20,027 nt of DNA from a virus. Each line of letters begins with the position of its first letter. The stretch's first letter is position 1. The stretch is from positions 1-20,027 of the IMG/VR virus record IMGVR_UViG_3300025736_000271. One strand, 5' to 3'. The position numbers and the translations under genes are program-made. Shown piece after piece: positions 739 to 13,755 of this stretch. The notes beneath the pieces were generated by a model that made no database searches, was not told where the DNA came from, and saw nothing but the letters and a program-made list of their open reading frames with translations.

Positions 739-2205
739 ATGGAACTGCCCGGAGGTTTGGAACTAAAGGTTGTTGAGTCTGATGTATCAGTCGATAGGTT
801 AAGTAATACTCTCAAGAAAGCCGCATCAGGAATATCTGGTGTATCCCGATCAGCAATAGTACTACAGCTGAAGGGTAGCGGAACAGAGGTAATACCATGG
901 CCTTACGATGTAGACCCAGCAGATTTCGCCGTTCTGTACGACGAGGAGCCTACTCACCATGCGTGTGTTGATGTTAAAGCATCAGCTACCATGTCTAATG
1001 GCTATAAGTTTGTACATAATAGCGGGTTGCCTAAAAGTGTTCCTATGGCTATGCGTAGGGATTTTGAAGATCTTTTTCCCGATGGGCCTGAGCAACTTGT
1101 TTCTCGTGGGCAGAAAGACTTTGAGAGTCTAGGCAACGCCTGGGTCGAGGTAGTGAGGGATGGTACGGGGCGCGTAAAGAATGGCTTAGGTAGGGTTGTA
1201 CAGCTTAACCATATCCCGGCCTATACGATGTGGAGACTGAACCCAAATACAGCCTCCACTAATGGATCATATGTTCAGATATGCAACGGCACAGAGGTAT
1301 ACTTCCGTGAGTTCGGGTCTCAACCATTAGAGATAAACGGAGAGTGGGTGAACGAGGTTGTTCACCTCATAAACTACACTCCGTCTCATTACTTTTATGG
1401 GCTGCCTGCTATCTGGTCTGCTCTTTATGCGGCCATGTCCAACAGGCTAGATGGACAGAACTCAGTAGAGTACCAAGAAGATAAAGGCCTAGCTCGCTAC
1501 ATGCTTGTTATGGACGGGGCTCATACCATGGTTGATCCTAAAGACGAGGCCATGATAACTAACTATATGAACTCGCTAATGGAGAAGCGTAGCGTTAAGC
1601 TAATAATGGTTAGCACTCCAGCGGGGACAAACTCGAAGTTCCAGGCATTGCGTGAAGACCCGCACTTCGATCACTTATTGAATAACCGTAACGCTAATAG
1701 AGATGAGATATGTAGGGTTGAGCAAGTTCCTCCGAGGTTGATCGGAATCATCGCACAGGGCGCTTTAGGCTCTACAGGGGAAGGGGAGTCTCAGTTTGAT
1801 CTGTTCAAGCGATTAGTTGTTCGCCCAAGACAGAACAGATGGGAGAGATTGTTCTATAATGTCTTCTTCGCCAACGTCGATAAGCGAAAGCAGTGGGGCG
1901 TAGAGCTAAAAGAGGTAGACTTAGCAGACTTCCTGCGAAGACAGCAGGCGAATATTGGTTATGTTCGTTCTGGTGTGTTCTCTATCAACCAGGTTCTTGC
2001 CGATCTGGGAAGACCTCCTCTAAGTAGAGGCGGAGACGAGCACTTCATTATCTCTGGTGGTCAACCTGTAAAGATTGAGGACATAGGGAATGTGGACGTT
2101 CCGGCGGAGAGAAACGTAGTTGGGTCGAGAGAGGCCCTAGGCGGGCTGGACAGTGACGCCACATCTACAGATACATCGGTTAGGGGGGATACAGCTCATG
2201 TTTGA
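739..2205 (+). CDS. Portal protein
   Basis: The protein has 488 residues, normal for a phage portal. Portal forms the dodecameric ring at one vertex of the capsid, through which DNA enters and leaves and on which the neck is built. Segments typical of PBSX-type portals are visible: HHACVDVKASATMSNGYKF near residues 73-91, YGLPAIWSALYAAMSNRL in the middle, and VEQVPPRLIGI followed by a Gly/Glu-rich GALGSTGEGES loop near residues 330-350. The C-terminal stretch is polar. The ATG at 739 is two bases after the upstream stop. Only a weak purine stretch precedes it, so translation is probably coupled to the gene before. The 3' end overlaps the protease gene by eight bases. Position between terminase and prohead protease supports the call. 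Confidence 0.88.
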   Translation: MELPGGLELKVVESDVSVDRLSNTLKKAASGISGVSRSAIVLQLKGSGTEVIPWPYDVDPADFAVLYDEEPTHHACVDVKASATMSNGYKFVHNSGLPKSVPMAMRRDFEDLFPDGPEQLVSRGQKDFESLGNAWVEVVRDGTGRVKNGLGRVVQLNHIPAYTMWRLNPNTASTNGSYVQICNGTEVYFREFGSQPLEINGEWVNEVVHLINYTPSHYFYGLPAIWSALYAAMSNRLDGQNSVEYQEDKGLARYMLVMDGAHTMVDPKDEAMITNYMNSLMEKRSVKLIMVSTPAGTNSKFQALREDPHFDHLLNNRNANRDEICRVEQVPPRLIGIIAQGALGSTGEGESQFDLFKRLVVRPRQNRWERLFYNVFFANVDKRKQWGVELKEVDLADFLRRQQANIGYVRSGVFSINQVLADLGRPPLSRGGDEHFIISGGQPVKIEDIGNVDVPAERNVVGSREALGGLDSDATSTDTSVRGDTAHV

Positions 2206-3382
2206 GAAGGCGTTTAAGGGATCTGTTGTTATTCCAACCAAGTTCAAGAGTGACGGAGACCTTATCGTAGGGTATGCCAGCACTCCGCTAGTAGACCTCG
2301 GGGACGATAAATACAGAGACCAGATACCGTCTCACCTCTGGCTGAAGGCATTGACTACGTTCTTCGCCACTGGCGCTGAGATCAGTTTCATGCACCGAAA
2401 CATTGTAGCTGGGCAGACGGTAAAGATAGAGCTTGACGCAAACGGCCCGTTGCTTTACACTCGACCAACCAAGCAATACGTCAAGATGATGATTGCCGAA
2501 GGCGACCTGACAGGATACTCAATTGAATATACGGCTAACGATTGGGAGCTAAAGGATAACCCAGACCCATTTGATAGTCGCCCCGTCAGGGTGTTTAAGG
2601 ACTTTGACGTGTGGCGCGTGTCATACGTCGATAAACCGATGAACCCTGGATCTACATTTATAGGGGGTAAGAGCTTGAACTTTGATGATTTTCATTATAC
2701 GTTTGACACAGAGAAAGGGGAGGTAACCGTTGTTGCGAACTCGCTTGATGCGTTTGCTCAATTGACTGGAATGTTTTCTGATGGTCTTGGATTCCCCGAC
2801 GAGTTACCATTGGTTAAGGAAATATCTATCAAGATGGCGAGCGGCGATCCCGCTCATACGGACAAATCACACCGGACGACTAATCCGTTTACGAAAGCTA
2901 TTGATGCTCTAGTTGCGCTCGGTGCAAAGACACAGGAGGAAACTGTGAAAGACACAGAGTTAAAGGCTCAGATTGAGGCACTAACTGCTTCGGTTACCGA
3001 AGCCATGGAGAAGTTTACCAAGTTAGAGCTCACTGCGGCACAGATCACCGAGCTGAAAGAGCAGGTCACCGCGCTTGCGGCCCTGATGCCAAAAGCTCCC
3101 GCAGAGGGAGAGAAGAGCGTAGTGGAGCAGGTTGTGGCATTAGGCGAGAAGGTTGATGCTCTTTCTGTTCTTATGCCAAAAGCCCCCGCAGAGGGAGAGA
3201 AGAGTGTAACTGAGAGGATTGCAGCCCTAGAGGCAAGCACAGCCTCTACGGTAACAGACGAAGTAAGCGAACTAAAGGCTACTGTTGAGTCTATTGTAGC
3301 TCTACTGGAGTCCGAGAAGGGTAAGTCTACTTTCACGAAGCCAGTCCCTAACGTCAATACCGACAAATGGGGCGCGTACTAA
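2198..3382 (+). CDS. Prohead protease with C-terminal scaffold domain
   Basis: The protein has 394 residues. I choose ATG 2198 because AGGGGGGA (2182-2189) lies just before it. A possible ATG at 2153 lies inside the portal gene without such a site. Residues 1 to about 165 look like an XkdF/herpesvirus-assemblin type prohead protease: GYAST at 25-29, a likely catalytic His66 in SFMHRN, a likely catalytic Ser108 in LTGYSIEY, and YVDKPMNPGS at 143-152, the usual end of the protease core. A polar linker follows, and from about residue 250 there are heptad-like coiled-coil helices rich in Glu, Lys, Leu and Ala. This resembles scaffold proteins that guide capsid assembly and are then degraded by the protease. 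It lies directly upstream of the major capsid gene. The end carries a 29-residue repeat and an internal start, both listed separately. Confidence 0.82.
   Translation: MFEKAFKGSVVIPTKFKSDGDLIVGYASTPLVDLGDDKYRDQIPSHLWLKALTTFFATGAEISFMHRNIVAGQTVKIELDANGPLLYTRPTKQYVKMMIAEGDLTGYSIEYTANDWELKDNPDPFDSRPVRVFKDFDVWRVSYVDKPMNPGSTFIGGKSLNFDDFHYTFDTEKGEVTVVANSLDAFAQLTGMFSDGLGFPDELPLVKEISIKMASGDPAHTDKSHRTTNPFTKAIDALVALGAKTQEETVKDTELKAQIEALTASVTEAMEKFTKLELTAAQITELKEQVTALAALMPKAPAEGEKSVVEQVVALGEKVDALSVLMPKAPAEGEKSVTERIAALEASTASTVTDEVSELKATVESIVALLESEKGKSTFTKPVPNVNTDKWGAY
2934..2940 (+). promoter_or_regulatory. Internal Shine-Dalgarno site inside the protease gene
   Basis: AGGAGGA matches the anti-SD sequence perfectly and sits five bases, counted from AGGAGG, before a GTG codon at 2945 that is in frame with the protease gene. 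The site falls at the junction between the protease linker and the coiled-coil scaffold part. Glu-Glu codons can create AGGAGG-like sequence by chance (here within Thr-Gln-Glu-Glu), so function is inferred. Confidence 0.55.
2945..3382 (+). CDS. Probable separate scaffold protein from an internal GTG start
   Basis: In-frame translation from GTG 2945 gives 145 residues identical to the C-terminal part of the protease (residues 250-394). It starts MKDTELKAQIEALTASVTEA if GTG is read as Met. The product is almost entirely coiled coil, without the protease core. Lambda gives a precedent: scaffold Nu3 is made from an internal start within the protease gene C and shares its C-terminal sequence. What is seen is a perfect SD at ideal spacing located exactly at a domain boundary. 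That it is used is inference. If used, scaffold could be made in excess over protease, as capsid assembly usually needs. Confidence 0.5.
   Translation: MKDTELKAQIEALTASVTEAMEKFTKLELTAAQITELKEQVTALAALMPKAPAEGEKSVVEQVVALGEKVDALSVLMPKAPAEGEKSVTERIAALEASTASTVTDEVSELKATVESIVALLESEKGKSTFTKPVPNVNTDKWGAY
3065..3232 (+). repeat. Imperfect tandem repeat, 29-codon unit, in the scaffold region
   Basis: Two copies of a 29-residue unit lie 87 bases apart, covering protein residues 290-316 and 319-345. The core LMPKAPAEGEKSV is identical in both (3083-3121 and 3170-3208). Over these 39 bases only three differ, and all three are third-position silent changes. The flanks keep the pattern V-x-A-L-x-x before and V-x-E-x-x-x-A-L after the core. 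This suggests a fairly recent in-frame duplication that lengthened the coiled-coil scaffold, with the protein sequence kept under selection since. Confidence 0.85.
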
Positions 3383-3407: not shown

Positions 3408-4397
3408 ATGGATCGCAAAGACATCATGACCAAGTTCCTGTCTACTACAATTGGAACAGACGGTCTATTGAACGCTACGCAGGCACGTTTATTTATCGAC
3501 GAGTTTGTACAGACGGCTGAGTTAATGCCGTTGGTTACGCGACAGATAAAGACTGAGAGGTCGGGTACGTTCTACTCGATTGACATGAGTCAACCGGCAA
3601 CGGTTGCGGCTTCCGAGGGAACCGAGTACACCGACGAGACCGGAGAGGTCACTTACGACAAGTATGCGTACAATGTCGTGAAGCGTCGAACCCAGTTCGA
3701 GATGACGTGGGAAGATGAGGCATGGACGATTGAGGGTGCTGGCTTCAAGCAGCATATCGTCAACATGTGGCTTCAGCGTTGGGGTGTTGATACTGAGGCG
3801 CTTGGTCTCTTAGGTGAGGGGCCTGCTGCAATTCCAGCTCCAGTGACAGCATGGGAGAAACTCTATGCTATTAACGAGGGTTGGTTGCCACAGATTACTG
3901 TGGCTAATGGATGCCATATCATAGACGCCGATGGCGCAACGCCTACATTCGAGCTATTCGCCAAGGCGTTCAACAACGTTCCTAACAAGTATCTGCGATT
4001 TGCCAAGCGCAACTATCGCTGGATGACTTCTACTCACGTCATCAGCGACTATCGCAACTACCTATCTTCGAGGCAGACTGGGCTTGGTGATGCTATCATC
4101 AATGGCCGTATCGCTCTTTCCCCGCAGGGAGTTCCTTTTGCAGGAGCCAATGGAGAAGAGGGCTTTGCTGTATTCCCTGAAACATTGGGAACAACCGAAG
4201 ACCAGGGTGTTATTTTGCTCATGGATCCAAAGGCTCTAGTGTGGTTCGTCCACCGCGACATGAAGCTTCTTAATCGCTTCATCCAAGAGAAGGATAGTTT
4301 TAGGTATACTGGATACCACTACGATGACTTTATCGTAACCCAGTTCCCGTCTATCGTCCGCATCGACAACGTTGGGCGCGACACCACCTACGAGTAG
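3408..4397 (+). CDS. Major capsid protein (HK97-type fold)
   Basis: The protein has 329 residues, normal for a HK97-fold shell protein. AAGGAGG at 3388-3394 precedes the ATG, with a somewhat long 13-base spacer; Met7 at 3426 has no better site. After the N-terminal helix (NATQARLFIDEFVQTAELMP), residues about 60-110 form a charged extended arm (ASEGTEYTDETGEVTYDKYA then RRTQFEMTWEDEAW), as in the E-loop of this fold. The C-terminal part reads VILLMDPKALVWFVHRDMKL, then YHYDDFIVTQFPSIVRIDNV, the typical beta strands of the axial domain. The N-terminus is not preceded by a long delta domain. This fits with scaffolding supplied by the upstream gene. The order portal, protease/scaffold, capsid is standard. 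Several hundred copies per particle are expected. Confidence 0.87.
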   Translation: MDRKDIMTKFLSTTIGTDGLLNATQARLFIDEFVQTAELMPLVTRQIKTERSGTFYSIDMSQPATVAASEGTEYTDETGEVTYDKYAYNVVKRRTQFEMTWEDEAWTIEGAGFKQHIVNMWLQRWGVDTEALGLLGEGPAAIPAPVTAWEKLYAINEGWLPQITVANGCHIIDADGATPTFELFAKAFNNVPNKYLRFAKRNYRWMTSTHVISDYRNYLSSRQTGLGDAIINGRIALSPQGVPFAGANGEEGFAVFPETLGTTEDQGVILLMDPKALVWFVHRDMKLLNRFIQEKDSFRYTGYHYDDFIVTQFPSIVRIDNVGRDTTYE

Positions 4398-7017: not shown

Positions 7018-7191
7018 ATGATACGAGTTCGTAACACAAAGAGACATCAGCGGGTTATCAATATGCTGGGCAAGACACAGTATATTGCGCCACGAAGCAC
7101 GGTAGAGTTGACCGAGGCCGAGTTTAAGTGCACTGAGATACAGAACTTGATAAAGAAAGACTACCTTCGGGTAGTAGGGGGGGCTGCATAA
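7018..7191 (+). CDS. Small 57-residue protein directly upstream of the sheath gene
   Basis: The ATG at 7018 follows GAGGAGA (7007-7013) at good distance, and the frame runs to TAA at 7189-7191, immediately before the sheath ATG at 7192. The protein starts MIRVRNTKRHQRVINMLGKT and ends KKDYLRVVGGAA. It is basic and small, with a beta-then-helix look, and the segment LTEAEFKCTEIQNLIKKDYLRV resembles the end of short proteins that advise residue positions by a terminal rule of the type lysine-rich then hydrophobic. Mu-like phages carry a similarly short protein (DUF2635 type) in this same place before the sheath. Homology to it is only suggested by size and position. The function is unknown; coupled translation with sheath is likely. 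Confidence 0.6.
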   Translation: MIRVRNTKRHQRVINMLGKTQYIAPRSTVELTEAEFKCTEIQNLIKKDYLRVVGGAA

Positions 7192-8724
7192 ATGCCCGGT
7201 AATGAGAGATACTTAGCTCCTGGTGTATATGTCTCCGAGATCCCTATGGGTGGAGAGCCACTACAGCCAGCAGGTAGTGCTGCTGCTGGAATGGTTATGA
7301 CCGCTGAATGGGGTCCGATGGACGTAGCTACGCTAGTCACGAGCTGGACGGACTTCGTCCGAACATTTGGCAACGATACCTCAAATGGATATGGGGCGTT
7401 AGGGGCAAGAGACTTCTTCAGGTTGGGCGGAAATCGCCTATGGGTGGCGCGTACATCGCACCACACAGACCAAACTGAAGCCACGAGTACCACTGCCGTA
7501 AAGGCCACTATCACAGTTCCTTCCAGCGAAGCTACCCCGCAAACCTTGTTTACCGTTACTGCAAAGTATTACGGCACGCTCGGCAACGACTTCAAGGTTG
7601 TGATCAGTGACGTTGACGCAGTTGACAAGACATTCATGTTGTCTCTGTGGAGATGGATTGACCCGTCATGGAAGCGTATCGATCGCTTCACTTATGTTGG
7701 AGTAGACTCCGCCGATGAAGTCAACTTCATGGAAGACAAGATCAATGATGTGTCCGCATATATCGTTATCACAAACACGGTTGAGGATGTTGTCCCTGCC
7801 GCTGGCACGTATACGATGATTGGCGGAACAGACGGCATTGCCGCCATGGATGATAATGACCACCTCGGGGATTCCGCTGGCAAGACTGGGCTTTACCAGT
7901 TCGATAGCGTACCTGAGATTCTAGGTATCTGCCATCCCGGCATTACCTCTACTCCAGTGATTATCGGTGGACAGGCATATGTGAGGGACACAGTTGCCCG
8001 CAGACAGCATGATGTTTACGTGTTTGACTTCCCTCTCGCCACTACTCCAGCAGGAGCGCTTGCATTAGCCCAGGATTCTTATATGTCTACTGGGTATGAG
8101 GCAGCATACTATCCATGGGTTGATGAGGGGACCACCGAGAAACCAGTGTCTCCTTATATGTTGGGCGTATGGGCGAAGAACGATTACGATAACGGCGTAT
8201 GGCACGCGCCAGCCGGTACCGCGTTCGAGCTTCCCATTAGCGGGCTGGAGTACGATCTGAACTTCGGTGACCTGCAAACACTGAACCCAGAGGGGATTAA
8301 CTCGATCTTCCACCTCAAGAGCGAGGGGTTTGTTCCTTGGGGCGATCGCACCCTGGACGTGCAGACGCACTTCCGTTACCTGAACATTAGGCGTTTCTTG
8401 AACGTTATCAAGAAGACCCTACAGGACGGAACTAATCAGTTCATCTTCGAGCCTAATGCACCTAACACGTGGGCCAGGATCGAGGACACCGCCCGACTGT
8501 TGATGATGTACTACTATTCTCTTGGCGCTTTCAGCGGGAAGACAATAGCAGAAAGCTTCTACGTGAAGTGCGACATCAGCACAAATCCGCCAGAACTTAC
8601 TAACCAGGGTATTTGCACCTGCGTTATCGGAGTGAACTTTGTTAAGCCTATCGAGTTCCTAGAATTCGAGGTACAGATCTACAACGATGGAGTCCTGCCA
8701 ATCGCCACTACGGCTGGGGCATAG
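7192..8724 (+). CDS. Contractile tail sheath protein
   Basis: The protein has 510 residues, in the common size range. The start touches the previous stop, and a G-rich site (AGGGGGGG, 7176-7183) lies eight bases upstream. The N-terminus LAPGVYVSEIPMGG and then GMVMTAEWGPMD are highly typical of sheath proteins (PGVYvxE, followed by GfvGxaexGP). Near the C-terminus, GINSIFHLKSEGFVPWGDRT and HFRYLNIRRFLNVIKKTL correspond to the conserved core where the gene-wide sheath signature WG-x-RT and the R-R helix lie. The end VNFVKPIEFLEFEVQIY (481-497) matches the usual last strand that interlocks neighbouring subunits. The protein wraps the tail tube and contracts on infection. This gene alone proves a myovirus-type tail. 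Confidence 0.95.
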   Translation: MPGNERYLAPGVYVSEIPMGGEPLQPAGSAAAGMVMTAEWGPMDVATLVTSWTDFVRTFGNDTSNGYGALGARDFFRLGGNRLWVARTSHHTDQTEATSTTAVKATITVPSSEATPQTLFTVTAKYYGTLGNDFKVVISDVDAVDKTFMLSLWRWIDPSWKRIDRFTYVGVDSADEVNFMEDKINDVSAYIVITNTVEDVVPAAGTYTMIGGTDGIAAMDDNDHLGDSAGKTGLYQFDSVPEILGICHPGITSTPVIIGGQAYVRDTVARRQHDVYVFDFPLATTPAGALALAQDSYMSTGYEAAYYPWVDEGTTEKPVSPYMLGVWAKNDYDNGVWHAPAGTAFELPISGLEYDLNFGDLQTLNPEGINSIFHLKSEGFVPWGDRTLDVQTHFRYLNIRRFLNVIKKTLQDGTNQFIFEPNAPNTWARIEDTARLLMMYYYSLGAFSGKTIAESFYVKCDISTNPPELTNQGICTCVIGVNFVKPIEFLEFEVQIYNDGVLPIATTAGA

Positions 8725-8734
8725 GTGATAATTG

Positions 8735-9700
8735 ATGGCTGAGGAAAAGAGAGCACGACGCGGTTTATTCACCGTCTCCGTTATAGGGGGCGGTGGAGAA
8801 CACAAGCTACAAAGTGTGAGTAACTTTGGGCTTGGTGTTGACGCCATAAGCTCGGTATCGGAGTCCACTCGACTTGATCAGTTTTCTCTCCCTGCGCAGT
8901 ACAACATGGAGAACATAACTCTCAAGGAGACTCCTTTTGCTGGATGCGACAATCAGCCTGCTACGAACTTCCTGTTCAAGGTGCTTGTTAATGGTACCGA
9001 GATTGGGCATATGCGTAGCGTGTCTGGTATTGGCGCGAGCTGGGATGTTATGGAGAATCGGGAATCTACTAGCCTCAATGTTCAGAAGTTGTTTAACAAA
9101 AGAACAACTCCCGACATCACGCTAAACCAGGTAATCGATCTCAACGAAGGTAATCCCTTCTACAACCAGATGAAAAAGATGGGTGAGTATGTCGGTCCCG
9201 GCAATGGTTATTCTGTTGTCGGTGGGGCTGACTGCGCGTATCGCGGTGACTGGTCATTCATCCTAATGAACCGATCAGGTGGTGAGGTTGCGCGATGGAC
9301 TATGTATGGCGCGTACCCAAGTCACTACCAACCAATAGGCGATCTTGATGCCTCCTCTAGCGAGGTCGGTATGAGGACTTTGACTCTTACATCTTCTCCT
9401 ATCTATGGTGTTCAGAATATAGAAGAGAAGGTTACGTCATGGCCTAATGGTGGACAGATTGTAAGCGGTGAGTTCCTCTCATGGATCTCTGGGGTATTTG
9501 CTGTACCAACACGCAAACACCTAATGCTCAACCTGTACCACCCTGATGCAATACCCGGCATGGGGCAACCAGCTAAGCGATGGAAGTTGTTTAACTGCTG
9601 GCCGTCTTCGGTTTCATACCAAGACCTTGATGCCGGATCTCCGGGGCTGTGTACGCGCGAAATAGTGTTGGCAACCGACGGGTTTCTACCCATAGGATAA
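8735..9700 (+). CDS. Tail tube protein, extended form with a repeated tube-fold end
   Basis: I choose ATG 8735 (321 residues) over TTG 8732, because AGGTGA at 8723-8728 is six bases before it. The central part follows the T4 gp19-like tube fold: NFLFKVLVNGTEIGHMRSVS (78-97), then TTPDITLNQVIDL (124-136), then RWTMYGAYPSHYQPIGDLDA (187-206) with SSSEVGMRTLTLTSS. A second version of the last block occurs at 282-318: RWKLFNCWPSSVSYQDLDAG and REIVLATDGF. The first 75 residues also contain MENITLKETPF, similar to the DITL strand. Usual tube proteins have 140-170 residues, so this one is about double. It follows the sheath gene, as tube genes do, and no second tube gene is seen. It could be the tube itself with extra domains, or a fused tube and initiator (T4 gp54 is similarly long). 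Confidence 0.75.
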   Translation: MAEEKRARRGLFTVSVIGGGGEHKLQSVSNFGLGVDAISSVSESTRLDQFSLPAQYNMENITLKETPFAGCDNQPATNFLFKVLVNGTEIGHMRSVSGIGASWDVMENRESTSLNVQKLFNKRTTPDITLNQVIDLNEGNPFYNQMKKMGEYVGPGNGYSVVGGADCAYRGDWSFILMNRSGGEVARWTMYGAYPSHYQPIGDLDASSSEVGMRTLTLTSSPIYGVQNIEEKVTSWPNGGQIVSGEFLSWISGVFAVPTRKHLMLNLYHPDAIPGMGQPAKRWKLFNCWPSSVSYQDLDAGSPGLCTREIVLATDGFLPIG

Positions 9701-9755: not shown

Positions 9756-10541
9756 ATGTACAAGCTACCAGTAGGTATTGTTAGAGATGGAAAGATCCTC
9801 GACGAGGTTGAGCTTAATCAGCCAACGGGGAGATCGTTAAAGAATATCCGTAACGCAATGAATATCAAGACACGTGGATTTAACCCCAAGGTGTATAAGG
9901 TAGTGCTGCGTGACGGGGTAAAGTCAATTAAAGGAATACCGGGATCTCCATCAGAAGATGACTTGATGAGCATGACGTGGTCTGACGCCGAATACATCTT
10001 CATGGAACTAGCTAGACTAGACCTTGATGGCGAGAGCCCCAAGCTCGCGGTGGAGTGTCCTCAATGTGGGAATAGCGTTACCGTTGAGTTCCCGATGGAC
10101 GAAGTTACAGTTGACCGTCTATCGGACAAAGATAGTACATCCAAGTTCGTAGGAGAGCACTTGATACCGTTCAAGCTCTCCAAGCCTATCTCTCTTGATT
10201 TAGAGGGGAAGGAAAAGATCAAGGATGGGAAGATGCGTCTACTGACTGTTGGAGAGATGTTGAAGCTGTACTCCAATGGCGGCGATAAGCTGGGGACAGC
10301 CATGCTGGATTCAGTCTGCCTTGCAATTGAAAGCCTTGGCCCACACGGGCACGAAGACTTCTCTAATGCTGAAATAGAATTACTTCCAGCAAAAGACATG
10401 AAGATGCTAGAACGTCTCTACAACGACAATCTCCCTGGAGTAACACCACCCGTAAGCGTGCCTTGCCCTTCTTGCGGAGAGGACATTCCTATGGGGACAA
10501 TCGATTGGGTGACAGATTTTTTAGTATCCAATCTGGTGTAA
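9756..10541 (+). CDS. Tail assembly chaperone, short (unshifted) form, with two CxxC pairs
   Basis: The protein has 261 residues and its start has AAGGGAG (9742-9748) seven bases upstream. It lies directly before the tape measure gene, where tail assembly chaperones lie in almost all long-tailed phages. These proteins bind the tape measure and bring in tube subunits and are not part of the final virion. Cys101-Cys104 (ECPQCGNSV) and Cys237-Cys240 (PCPSCGEDI) form two zinc-knuckle-like pairs, which could join into one zinc ribbon. Between them the sequence is mostly helical with Leu and Lys. CPxCG pairs are also known from T4 gp26-type baseplate assembly proteins. The gene ends with a slippery sequence that leads to a longer product, listed separately. 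Confidence 0.75.
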   Translation: MYKLPVGIVRDGKILDEVELNQPTGRSLKNIRNAMNIKTRGFNPKVYKVVLRDGVKSIKGIPGSPSEDDLMSMTWSDAEYIFMELARLDLDGESPKLAVECPQCGNSVTVEFPMDEVTVDRLSDKDSTSKFVGEHLIPFKLSKPISLDLEGKEKIKDGKMRLLTVGEMLKLYSNGGDKLGTAMLDSVCLAIESLGPHGHEDFSNAEIELLPAKDMKMLERLYNDNLPGVTPPVSVPCPSCGEDIPMGTIDWVTDFLVSNLV

Positions 10542-10744
10542 GGGTCAACCGCGATCATACGGTTACTATCGCTAAAGACCCAACATACAACCTCCCCGTA
10601 TTAGACGTAGAGGATCACTACTTTGCCATCAAGTACCACTGGACCGTCCCCCAAAGCGAAGCACTAACAGCGGCAGCACGCCGTATGCACCTAGTTATGA
10701 TAGCGAGAGACGCTGAGCTAGAAGCAGAGGCCTACGAACAATAG
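9756..10744 (+). CDS. Tail assembly chaperone, long form by programmed -1 frameshift
   Basis: Translation follows the short form for 256 codons up to 10523 (ending WVTDFL). It then slips back one base on T TTT TTA and continues with AGT at 10523-10525, reading SIQSGVRVNRDHTVTIAKDP and on to TAG at 10742-10744. The shifted product has about 329 residues, with a 73-residue extension. This matches the lambda gpG/gpGT type, where the shifted extension binds tube protein and the common part binds the tape measure protein. The extension frame lacks an independent start: its first possible codon is a TTG at 10463 inside the first gene, without a good SD. The gene ends eight bases before the tape measure ATG. 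The heptamer and frame agreement are seen; the frameshift itself is inferred, but is expected at this locus. Confidence 0.78.
10517..10523 (+). promoter_or_regulatory. Slippery heptamer T TTT TTA for -1 frameshifting
   Basis: The sequence is X XXY YYZ with X = T, Y = T and Z = A, and it is in the right register for the chaperone frame (codons GAT, TTT, TTA). The same heptamer serves in HIV-1 gag-pol. The zero-frame stop follows at 10539-10541. Downstream, AACCG (10547-10551) can pair with CGGTT (10560-10564). Alternatively, GCGAT (10551-10555) can pair with ATCGC (10568-10572). Both are short and lie more than 20 bases after the heptamer, so a stimulatory role is uncertain. Confidence 0.8.
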
Positions 10745-10752
10745 GAGAGTTA

Positions 10753-13700
10753 ATGGCTGGACAGATTGGCACACAGATACTACTAGGCATTGAGGAGCGC
10801 GTCATAGGCGCATCTCAGGCCATCAGCCAGATCAATCAAACAGCCTCCGCTGTTAGGAATGTCAATACACAGCTACGGAATCAGGGTTCTGCCGGTATTG
10901 CCGCCGGACGGGGTATGCAACAGGCAGGAGTTCTCGGTAGCGCCGCCACGCAGAAGATGGCACAGAGTACATTCCGCTTCACCTTCTATGCCCTGATGGC
11001 GATACGCGTCGGGCAAACACTCATGTCTAAGGTGTTTATAGAAGGATCTATGAAGGCGGCTAACTCCTTCCAGCACTCATTCACACTTATTGACGCTGTA
11101 CTACAAACAACCACAGCAAACATAGAGAAGCTTAAAGCATTGTCTATCGACGTTGCCATGAGAACTCCGTTCGATCCGTCTGACGTGGCTGAAGGCATAC
11201 GTGTCTTCGCTAAGGCTGGTTGGAGTGCGTCCGAGACTGCTGGTGCTATCTTCTCCTCGACTGAGTTGGCTTCTATTGGCGAGATGAATCTTGCCGATGC
11301 TGTCGCATTCACAGCCACCTCGTTAAAGGCTTACGGGCACGAGGCTTCGTGGGCAGCAAACGCGACTAACCTGATCGCGTTCTTCGCAAACAAGTCTAAG
11401 TTCTCCATGGAAGACCTTATGACCGTCATGGGAAAAGTTGGGGCAACAGCTCACGCCTATGGTCAGAATATGGCCCAGACGTTGCAGCTCGCCACCGCCT
11501 TTGCCCAGGTTGGCACTAGCTCGTCTGAGACGGGAACCATGATGCGCCAGCTGTATACCAGGGCATCCAGGAAGACCGTAGCTCCGTTGCTAGAGGGTAG
11601 CTTGAGGGCTCAGGGGCTTGAACCGCTGTATAGCGGAGACACCGGCAAGATGACTAATGTTGGACAAGCCTACGTTGCTCTAGCAAAGACTATTCAGGAT
11701 TATGAAGATACGCTCGAAGGTGCAGACTTAGCGGCATTCGGGCTGATGCGCGACCAAGAGCTCTATACGATGTTCGGTATTCGCTCTGTGAGATCCTTCC
11801 TTTCCCTCTCGTCTCTTAGCATGGAGAAGTTCCAAGAGCTCATGCCCGATGCTCTTGCCAGGACGCTAGAGAAAGCAGCAGAGTATGAAGAGAAGTACAT
11901 GGTGAAGTTGCGTTCTGATTGGGCGTGGGCTAAAGCTCAGGCTGGTACTACAATGAGGACGTTACAGGCCACCGTGGGTAACGCAACGCTGTCGATGACT
12001 CGTCCGTTTATTCAGGGTGGAACTGAAGTCATGGCGATGACCAATAGCTTGATCACAATGAACGATACCACCCAGCACATGATTCCTATGCTGTTCACCC
12101 TAGGTGGGGTGCTCGTTGCCGTATCGGGAATGGCCGCAATCGCCGCAGGAACATTCATGCTGGTCAAGACGCGACTGGCTGATATGGGGTCTGCTTTAGT
12201 GGCGGACACGATAGCCATGGCGCGTATGGAGAAGATATATGGCACAATGCGCGTGTCTCGGTGGGCCTCTAGGGGCGCAACAGCCACCATCGGTATGCGC
12301 AACCTGACCTCTTATGCGGCCTCCCCTATGCGTCTACTCGGCGCACTCACAACCGTTGGTACAATCATATACTATGCTTGGTCTAAGAACCTCGCCGGAT
12401 TAAAGGACATGACCACCAAGTTCTTTGGCAGTTGGAATTCACAGCTAAATAACACGGGTACATTAGGCGAACGCATAGCCAATAAGTTCAAGAATATCTT
12501 CCGACCGTATACCCAAACAGCCGGAGGCCACACTGGCACCATGTTCGGGTCTATGTTGGGAGGTGTTTCAGGGACACTGCAACAAGGCGGTGCCCTGGAC
12601 GGGATGTTGAAGGGTCTGGCTTTCGGGTTCAAGGCACTTGGCACAGTCTTGAAGTGGGTCGGTAAGGGTCTTGGCTACCTGTGGCGCACGGCATTCTATA
12701 TGCTTAACGGAATAGCCAAACTATTAGGCCGCGGCGACATAGCTAAAGGTTTCGAGAGACTTGGAACAGCTCTTGGCTGGCTTGTGTCAGCAGCTATCTT
12801 CGAGAAGCTGATCTTCGGTATAGGGGCTCTCGGCAAGAGTTTGATATGGTTGACAGGACAAGTTCTAGCACACACCGCCTTTAGGGGCATAGCAAGAGGC
12901 GCACCTATGGGTATGATGGGGTCCGCCCTGTTGGGGGCTGTCCCTGGACGGAGAACGCTGTTGGCCGCGCGGGGGCTAAAAGACCGGGCCTTAATGTGGG
13001 GTGCCCGAGCGGATGCGGGATATGAAAATGTAGCCAGGAGCGCCCTGGCTGGTGCCGGTGGTCCCTTAGTAAGCTCTACGGCGGCTGGGGGCAGTGCGCT
13101 CCAGTCTACACGAGAACAGCTTATCGCTATGCAAACAGCTAGCGTTATGAGGGGAGAGATACAGGCCGAGAACCTAAGAAAACTAAGCCTGATAAGGATG
13201 AGGGGCATGGAACAAGGCCTCACTAAAACACTCATCGAAAGAAATGTTGCTACGGAAATCGCGCGGAGCGGGCGACCGGGGATGTTCGGGGCTTTCCGTA
13301 TGAGGGGAAGCGCGATGTTCGGCAGAACGACGATTGGGCGTGGTGCTATGGACATAGCCAGCCAACCATATGGAAGGAACGTATTCGGCAACATGATTCC
13401 TTATTCCGCCGCTAGAGGCGGAGGGATGATGGCAGGGATGGCTTCGTTCCTGACACCGGCGATAGTGAGTGTTATTGCTGTTACCGTTATAGCCCTACTC
13501 GGCCTAGGCCTATACTCAATGATCTCGCGCATTAACTCCAACAACGCACACAAGGTTAATGACTATGCTCTTGGCGGATCTACCAGCATGGCACCATCCT
13601 CTATCACGGTCAACGTGTCTAGCGCACACGACGATCCCAAGGCAATAGGCGATACCGCTGCCGCTGCCGTTCAGAAGATACTGAACCACAACCAGGAAAT

Positions 13701-13755
13701 CGGCGAAGAGGAAACAGCGAGAACTAACTTAGCAAAAGCAATACCGGCCAGGTGA
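10753..13755 (+). CDS. Tape measure protein
   Basis: The protein has 1000 residues, the longest in the window, and starts after AGGAGAG (10743-10749). The N-terminal quarter shows the phage tape measure core: VAMRTPFDPSDVAEGIRVFA from residue 134, then KAGWSASETAGAIFSSTELA and a GTSSSETGTMMRQLYTRAS segment near 255-275. Hydrophobic segments lie at about 443-471 (LFTLGGVLVAVSGMAAIAAG) and 899-924 (IVSVIAVTVIALLGLGLYSM). The region between is rich in Gly, Ala and Met with amphipathic helices. The protein runs inside the tube and sets tail length. At the known value of about 0.15 nm per residue, it predicts a tail near 150 nm. Such hydrophobic parts are usually linked to DNA passage across the inner membrane. 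No lysozyme or peptidase motif was noticed. Confidence 0.92.
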   Translation: MAGQIGTQILLGIEERVIGASQAISQINQTASAVRNVNTQLRNQGSAGIAAGRGMQQAGVLGSAATQKMAQSTFRFTFYALMAIRVGQTLMSKVFIEGSMKAANSFQHSFTLIDAVLQTTTANIEKLKALSIDVAMRTPFDPSDVAEGIRVFAKAGWSASETAGAIFSSTELASIGEMNLADAVAFTATSLKAYGHEASWAANATNLIAFFANKSKFSMEDLMTVMGKVGATAHAYGQNMAQTLQLATAFAQVGTSSSETGTMMRQLYTRASRKTVAPLLEGSLRAQGLEPLYSGDTGKMTNVGQAYVALAKTIQDYEDTLEGADLAAFGLMRDQELYTMFGIRSVRSFLSLSSLSMEKFQELMPDALARTLEKAAEYEEKYMVKLRSDWAWAKAQAGTTMRTLQATVGNATLSMTRPFIQGGTEVMAMTNSLITMNDTTQHMIPMLFTLGGVLVAVSGMAAIAAGTFMLVKTRLADMGSALVADTIAMARMEKIYGTMRVSRWASRGATATIGMRNLTSYAASPMRLLGALTTVGTIIYYAWSKNLAGLKDMTTKFFGSWNSQLNNTGTLGERIANKFKNIFRPYTQTAGGHTGTMFGSMLGGVSGTLQQGGALDGMLKGLAFGFKALGTVLKWVGKGLGYLWRTAFYMLNGIAKLLGRGDIAKGFERLGTALGWLVSAAIFEKLIFGIGALGKSLIWLTGQVLAHTAFRGIARGAPMGMMGSALLGAVPGRRTLLAARGLKDRALMWGARADAGYENVARSALAGAGGPLVSSTAAGGSALQSTREQLIAMQTASVMRGEIQAENLRKLSLIRMRGMEQGLTKTLIERNVATEIARSGRPGMFGAFRMRGSAMFGRTTIGRGAMDIASQPYGRNVFGNMIPYSAARGGGMMAGMASFLTPAIVSVIAVTVIALLGLGLYSMISRINSNNAHKVNDYALGGSTSMAPSSITVNVSSAHDDPKAIGDTAAAAVQKILNHNQEIGEEETARTNLAKAIPAR

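Follow-up and report, generated by a model that had tools for sequence, protein, structure and literature searches.

A probable -1 frameshift in the tail-assembly chaperone gene of a divergent contractile-tailed phage, and its possible relation to T4 gp26 and gp51

An out-of-frame chaperone arrangement ahead of the tape-measure gene is widespread (PMC5009743). In phage lambda, a short and a long chaperone are produced, the latter by a -1 slip (PMC5009743), and a review describes this G-T frameshift as conserved in long-tailed phages with the exception of T4 (PMC5009743). The contractile-tailed phage P2 and P2-like phages shift at TTTTTTG, and no hairpin was found at these sites (PMC3091744). 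Shifts in the +1 direction have been reported as well, which include the one proposed at TTT-CGC in the HF1 group of haloarchaeal myoviruses (PMC7230728) and the chaperone shift of HSTV-2 (PMC5009743). As for T4 itself, gp51 is known as an essential protein of unknown function that is missing from the final particle (PMC3004832).

The locus discussed herein is located in a 20 kb viral contig (termed the window, that is, the whole analysed stretch of 20,027 nucleotides), the head and contractile-tail genes of which are arranged in order. Profiles served to identify the portal, sheath, tube, chaperone, and tape measure, and the relevant features are as follows.

7192-8724, plus strand: tail sheath (phrog_23, E 1.5e-52)
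8732-9700, plus strand: tail tube protein of the T4 gp19 family (PF06841, E 1.5e-28)
9756-10541, plus strand: zero-frame tail-assembly chaperone of 261 aa with two zinc-ribbon CxxC motifs, T4 gp26/gp51 (PF12322) family (PF12322, E 7.8e-9; phrog_150, E 9.8e-9)
10517-10523, plus strand: slippery heptamer T TTT TTA in the -1 register (T TTT TTC counterpart in the related contigs L021 and L022)
10523-10744, plus strand: -1 frame extension of 73 codons plus stop, first codon AGT at 10523 (homologous extensions in the related contigs L021, L022, and L023)
10539-10541, plus strand: zero-frame stop TAA, five codons past the heptamer
10753-13755, plus strand: tail tape-measure protein of 1000 aa (PF10145, E 4.8e-25; phrog_1533, E 1.1e-26)

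The chaperone gene is thus placed between the tube and tape-measure genes, and the 211 nt separating it from the latter form the widest gap among the called genes, which is filled by the -1 frame. The next widest gap (190 nt, before the tail sheath) is occupied by a 57-aa ORF at 7018-7191, and small ORFs are also found at this place in Cantare and SP-15. Elsewhere in the window, ORF 2153-3382 contains a 39-bp direct repeat (3083-3121 and 3170-3208, 92% identical), while Rfam and tRNA scans of the window gave no matches. The best named matches of the major capsid protein (3408-4397) are Streptomyces phages at 27% identity, accompanied by a few Methanothermobacter and Halorubrum virus matches, which indicates that the head and tail modules differ in their nearest relatives.

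The 3' end of the chaperone gene reads ACA GAT TTT TTA GTA TCC AAT CTG GTG TAA, in which T TTT TTA occupies the exact X XXY YYZ register for a -1 slip, as the original prediction had held, and lies five codons before the stop. The predicted 73-codon -1 frame was likewise recovered, running from 10523 to 10741 with its stop at 10742-10744 and ending 8 nt short of the tape-measure ATG, and the anticipated junction peptide TDFL-SIQSG agrees with the sequence. Of the 6,175 codon positions in the window genes, 12 hold an in-frame heptamer of the general form X XXY YYZ, and T TTT TTA is the only one of these near a stop. Codon usage in the -1 frame scores +0.13 per codon, within the range of the phage genes (+0.08 to +0.23); values for the remaining five frames of this stretch run from about -0.35 to -0.70. 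Under a Markov model, 73 open codons would arise by chance with a probability of 4.8%, which is mildly unusual; an open frame by itself is therefore unconvincing at about 5%, and it is conservation that carries the case. The extension was modelled by AF2 as C-terminal helices with a pLDDT of 70, and a PDB fold search with this model returned no meaningful match.

Relatives of the locus were retrieved via the baseplate-J gene and subsequently by chaperone alignment. Single-protein scans with the chaperone, sheath, and tape measure yielded only near-identical contigs or over-distant T4-like sheaths; tblastn of the window chaperone against named phages gave no match, and a search of the genome collection gave no useful provirus. 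One contig, L002, is identical to the window in this region, its seven differences over 8.1 kb all falling outside it. The more distant relatives comprise L021 (one contig with L024), L022 (one contig with L025, to which L026 is 98.5% identical), and L023, whose chaperones share 42%, 36%, and 41% identity with that of the window, respectively. Both L021 and L022 carry GAT TTT TTC, hence T TTT TTC, at the homologous codons, and their -1 frames of 83-84 codons end 9 and 11 nt short of the tape-measure gene. The extensions of all three are homologous to that of the window by BLASTP (L021, 40% identity, E 2e-16; L022, 26%, 5e-12; L023, 39%, 3e-15) and have a YH-WT motif in common with it. Since relatives at 36-42% chaperone identity retain T TTT TTC together with a homologous -1 extension, this arrangement is not a product of chance. 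The strongest single number in this regard is the count of T TTT TTN in the long ORFs of the window and three related contigs, which amounts to 3 of 19,848 in-frame positions, each of them five codons before the chaperone stop.

The heptamer itself is less constant than the frames. Alignment of related phages had been proposed as a check on whether the heptamer and both frames stay conserved; the two frames and their register are kept in all three relatives, while the T6 heptamer is present in two of them (L021 and L022) and absent from L023. The latter retains the -1 extension but reads GAC TTC TTG, that is C TTC TTG, with no X XXY YYZ heptamer, which shows that the T6 run is dispensable in at least one lineage. 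No relative that keeps the chaperone and lacks both the heptamer and the extension was encountered among these contigs. With both frames and register retained and the -1 extensions recognizable as homologous proteins, the reading originally proposed is well supported, and it is highly probable, as judged from comparative sequence evidence, that a programmed -1 ribosomal frameshift yields a short and a long tail-assembly chaperone from this gene.

According to the proposed mechanism, the majority of ribosomes would read 9756-10541 and release the 261-residue gp26-like chaperone. In a minority, the Phe-tRNA on TTT and the Leu-tRNA on TTA would slip together by -1 on T TTT TTA to re-pair with TTT TTT, and these ribosomes would add 73 more codons, so that the product reaches 329 residues and terminates shortly ahead of the tape-measure gene. 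If the system works as in lambda gpG/gpGT and P2 E/E+E', the short and long forms may both coat the tape-measure protein, and the helical segment added at the C terminus of the long form may recruit tail-tube subunits. We infer that the slip takes place in cells with an efficiency that would govern the short-to-long ratio, and that the two products fulfil these roles.

Other routes to the same layout have to be weighed against ribosomal slippage. Should RNA polymerase add one U at the T6 run, normal ribosomes would then read the -1 frame, and a homopolymer run is indeed located at the junction. Efficient polymerase slippage typically involves longer runs than six T's, so that this one is short for the purpose; moreover, every T6 lineage with a -1 extension has the run in the exact X XXY YYZ register, a feature irrelevant to a polymerase, and L023 keeps the -1 frame with no T run at all. 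Although products of this sort are known to arise through transcriptional slippage as well (the title subject of PMC5009743), the short run, the kept ribosomal register, and the case of L023 make it improbable here.

The extension might also be a separate small protein with its own start or one produced by reinitiation past the TAA; in several annotated relatives a small independent ORF is recorded at this place, with its start inside the extension. The -1 frame of the window is open from 10373 up to its stop and so overlaps the chaperone 3' end, and it contains a TTG at 10463; this is the sole listed upstream start, and no good Shine-Dalgarno sequence is seen for it, in line with the earlier view that the extension has no usable start of its own. 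In each T6 lineage the open frame extends back over the end of the chaperone gene, in register with the slippery site, and the frame of L021 contains no ATG, GTG, or TTG within its first ~30 codons, which renders separate initiation highly improbable. Finally, the source is a metagenome contig, and homopolymer errors do happen, so a misread run length could have split one continuous ORF. A second contig (L002) is identical in the region, however, and L021, L022, L026, and the isolate genomes of Atu_ph07 and PA5oct are interrupted at the corresponding position and likewise run into a zero-frame stop soon after; because independent contigs and isolate genomes share the break, the probability of an assembly error is close to negligible. 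The -1 ribosomal slip thus stands as the preferred reading.

With regard to a stimulatory structure, the stems near the heptamer had been described as weak, and the values obtained for the window bear this out (z -1.3 for 60 nt and -1.5 for 100 nt). Among the simple stems modelled, none downstream of the T6 run is common to the window, L021, and L022. An HIV-type -1 signal consists of two parts, a heptamer and a stable conserved 3' structure, and no simple stem of the latter kind was recovered in the window. In L023, a strong stem (-28.9 kcal/mol, z -2.9) starts 2 nt downstream of C TTC TTG, and the segment L023:5753-5859 harboring this sequence and the hairpin is possibly a different, stem-dependent shift site. 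The conserved sequence TGGGTG upstream of the T run was considered as an internal Shine-Dalgarno element and is not claimed as such, since it codes for the conserved residues W-V and lies only ~4-5 nt ahead of the run.

The chaperone of the window scores 36 bits against PF12322, above the gathering cutoff of 24.5. The chaperones of L021-L023 fall under the cutoff (17.9-20.1 bits) and yet are 36-42% identical to it. The AF2 model of the chaperone is of low confidence (pLDDT 56), and its Foldseek matches, which comprise the SP-15 baseplate hub subunit, T4-like hub assembly proteins, and, in third place, a Myoviridae ctgXL3 baseplate protein (E 6.5e-9), add support only for the family that the HMM had identified. 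The first Foldseek match of the extension model is a separate 74-aa protein, also of Myoviridae ctgXL3 (E 0.1). The PF12322 cutoff is also passed by the chaperones of SP-15, LIS04, GXN1, BRock, GiJojo, Atu_ph07, PA5oct, LR756511, LR756508, and contig L031, while that of Mel-JY01 was found by tblastn with SP-15 and has no Pfam match. In all of these, Mel-JY01 and L031 included, the chaperone is followed by an out-of-frame extension.

The direction of the extension differs across this assemblage. It lies in the -1 frame in the window group, Atu_ph07, PA5oct, LR756511, and L031/L032, and in the +1 (or -2) frame in SP-15, LIS04, GXN1, BRock, GiJojo, Mel-JY01, LR756508, and the cyanophage group YongM/Elbi/Dfl, the chaperone of which measures 146 aa and gave no PF12322 match in Elbi, the one tested. 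Atu_ph07, PA5oct, and LR756511, with chaperones above the PF12322 cutoff, carry T TTT TTC in register with a -1 extension. In the two jumbo phages Atu_ph07 and PA5oct (L048:2286; L049:1357-2211, minus strand), this extension of ~70-75 codons is unannotated as a frameshift. The +1 (or -2) extensions of SP-15, LIS04, GXN1, Mel-JY01, BRock, and GiJojo (L016, L013, L012, L047, L015, and L033) are unannotated too, with TTT TTT N or TTT CGN as the junction where the gp26-like chaperone terminates. The corresponding Phe-Phe codons of L031/L032 read C TTC TTC.

The base preceding TTT TTN is T in 6/6 T6 lineages with a -1 extension versus 0/7 +1 loci with Phe-Phe codons (Fisher 6e-4, a value that ignores shared ancestry, three of the seven +1 loci belonging to one cyanophage group). 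Where the extension calls for it, the base completing the -1 heptamer is in place. Furthermore, SP-15 (3e-7) and LIS04 (1.5e-5) are recovered by a jumbo-phage extension profile built from -1 and +1 members, and a +1 extension profile finds the -1 member LR756511 at 3e-4; since profiles from one extension set find the other, the extension domain is common to both frames. The alignment of the very distant chaperones was too diverged to be used in scanning.

The same family contains two T4 proteins, both of them baseplate-hub chaperones. PF12322 and phrog_150 each cover the greater part of gp26 (208 aa) as well as of gp51 (249 aa), which identifies these two as paralogues. The end of gp26 corresponds to phrog_150 position 235, while gp51 runs on to 280. 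In the window, SP-15, and GXN1, the fused product exits phrog_150 at 234-236, which is the frameshift site. Several searches connect the part of gp51 beyond this point with the extensions. The single match of the L022 extension among 38,880 families is phrog_634 (E 0.048), the family matched by the C-terminal part of gp51. The +1-extension HMM finds a Proteus-phage gp51 at 2e-4, the hit lying in the tail (tail domain 0.00097), with the best shuffled decoy at 0.31. By hhalign, the extension and the gp51 tail align in the same register, with a probability of only 8.7 (1.0 for gp26 ends). The KPV15 baseplate protein, ZZ1 gp51, and a tail chaperone of a Bacillus phage are among the Foldseek matches of the extension model, all with E values of 0.1 or more. 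By contrast, in the reverse search with a gp51-tail HMM the extensions did not rise above decoys. Overall, these weak matches suggest that the C-terminal tail of gp51 may well be the same domain as the frameshift extension.

T4 may consequently encode as two paralogous genes what the window phage makes by frameshifting, a suggestive proposal that is as yet unproven. In a more general form, toward which we lean only slightly, the T4 exception would be just apparent, with gp26 as the short form and gp51 as the counterpart of the frameshifted long form, now divergent paralogues; across PF12322, the terminal Phe-Phe pair would shift -1 after a T and +1 otherwise; and gp51 would be the tube-recruiting long chaperone. 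That gp51 is essential and absent from the final particle is as expected for a long tail-assembly chaperone. No report linking gp26 or gp51 to frameshifting was found in the freely accessible literature.

The probable frameshift adds a divergent contractile-tailed lineage to the known and widely conserved trick. What it contributes beyond this is the membership of the frameshifted chaperone in the T4 gp26/gp51 family, which is less expected than the T-run. Should gp26 and gp51 be the equivalents of the short and long forms, T4, the one classic tailed phage said to be without G/GT, would have the system in another form, and gp51 would gain a specific, testable role. Meanwhile, the PF12322 family provides natural cases in which the shift at one and the same codon pair changes between -1 and +1. 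The T4 pair as a gene-duplicated form of the frameshift system is suggestive and unproven, and it is the part worth testing.

Compared with the described systems, the probable frameshift of the window is an instance of a known mechanism in a divergent contractile-tailed phage lineage. It has the same place and layout as lambda G/GT, from which it differs in its slippery site and in a chaperone of another sequence family. P2 E/E+E', together with P2-like KS5, KS14, and KL3, resembles it in the contractile tail and in a -1 shift within the chaperone gene between tube and tape measure, and the T-run of these phages runs counter to the original prediction that such a site is less usual in phage chaperones; on the other hand, P2 E has 91 aa against the 261 aa of the window chaperone, which is of the zinc-ribbon type and belongs to PF12322, and the window heptamer ends in A. 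The haloarchaeal myoviruses (HF1 group; HSTV-2) share the contractile tail and the two chaperone frames between tube and tape measure, but the shift proposed for them is +1. SP-15, LIS04, GXN1, BRock, and GiJojo are similar in their PF12322 scores above the cutoff, the sheath-tube-chaperone synteny, and an out-of-frame extension that precedes the tape measure and spans 66-89 codons, whereas they use the +1 (equivalently -2) frame and are not annotated as frameshifted. T4 gp26/gp51 match the same two families as the window chaperone, with gp26 ending at the frameshift position and gp51 carrying a further C-terminal tail, the difference being that T4 draws its two forms from separate, divergent genes.
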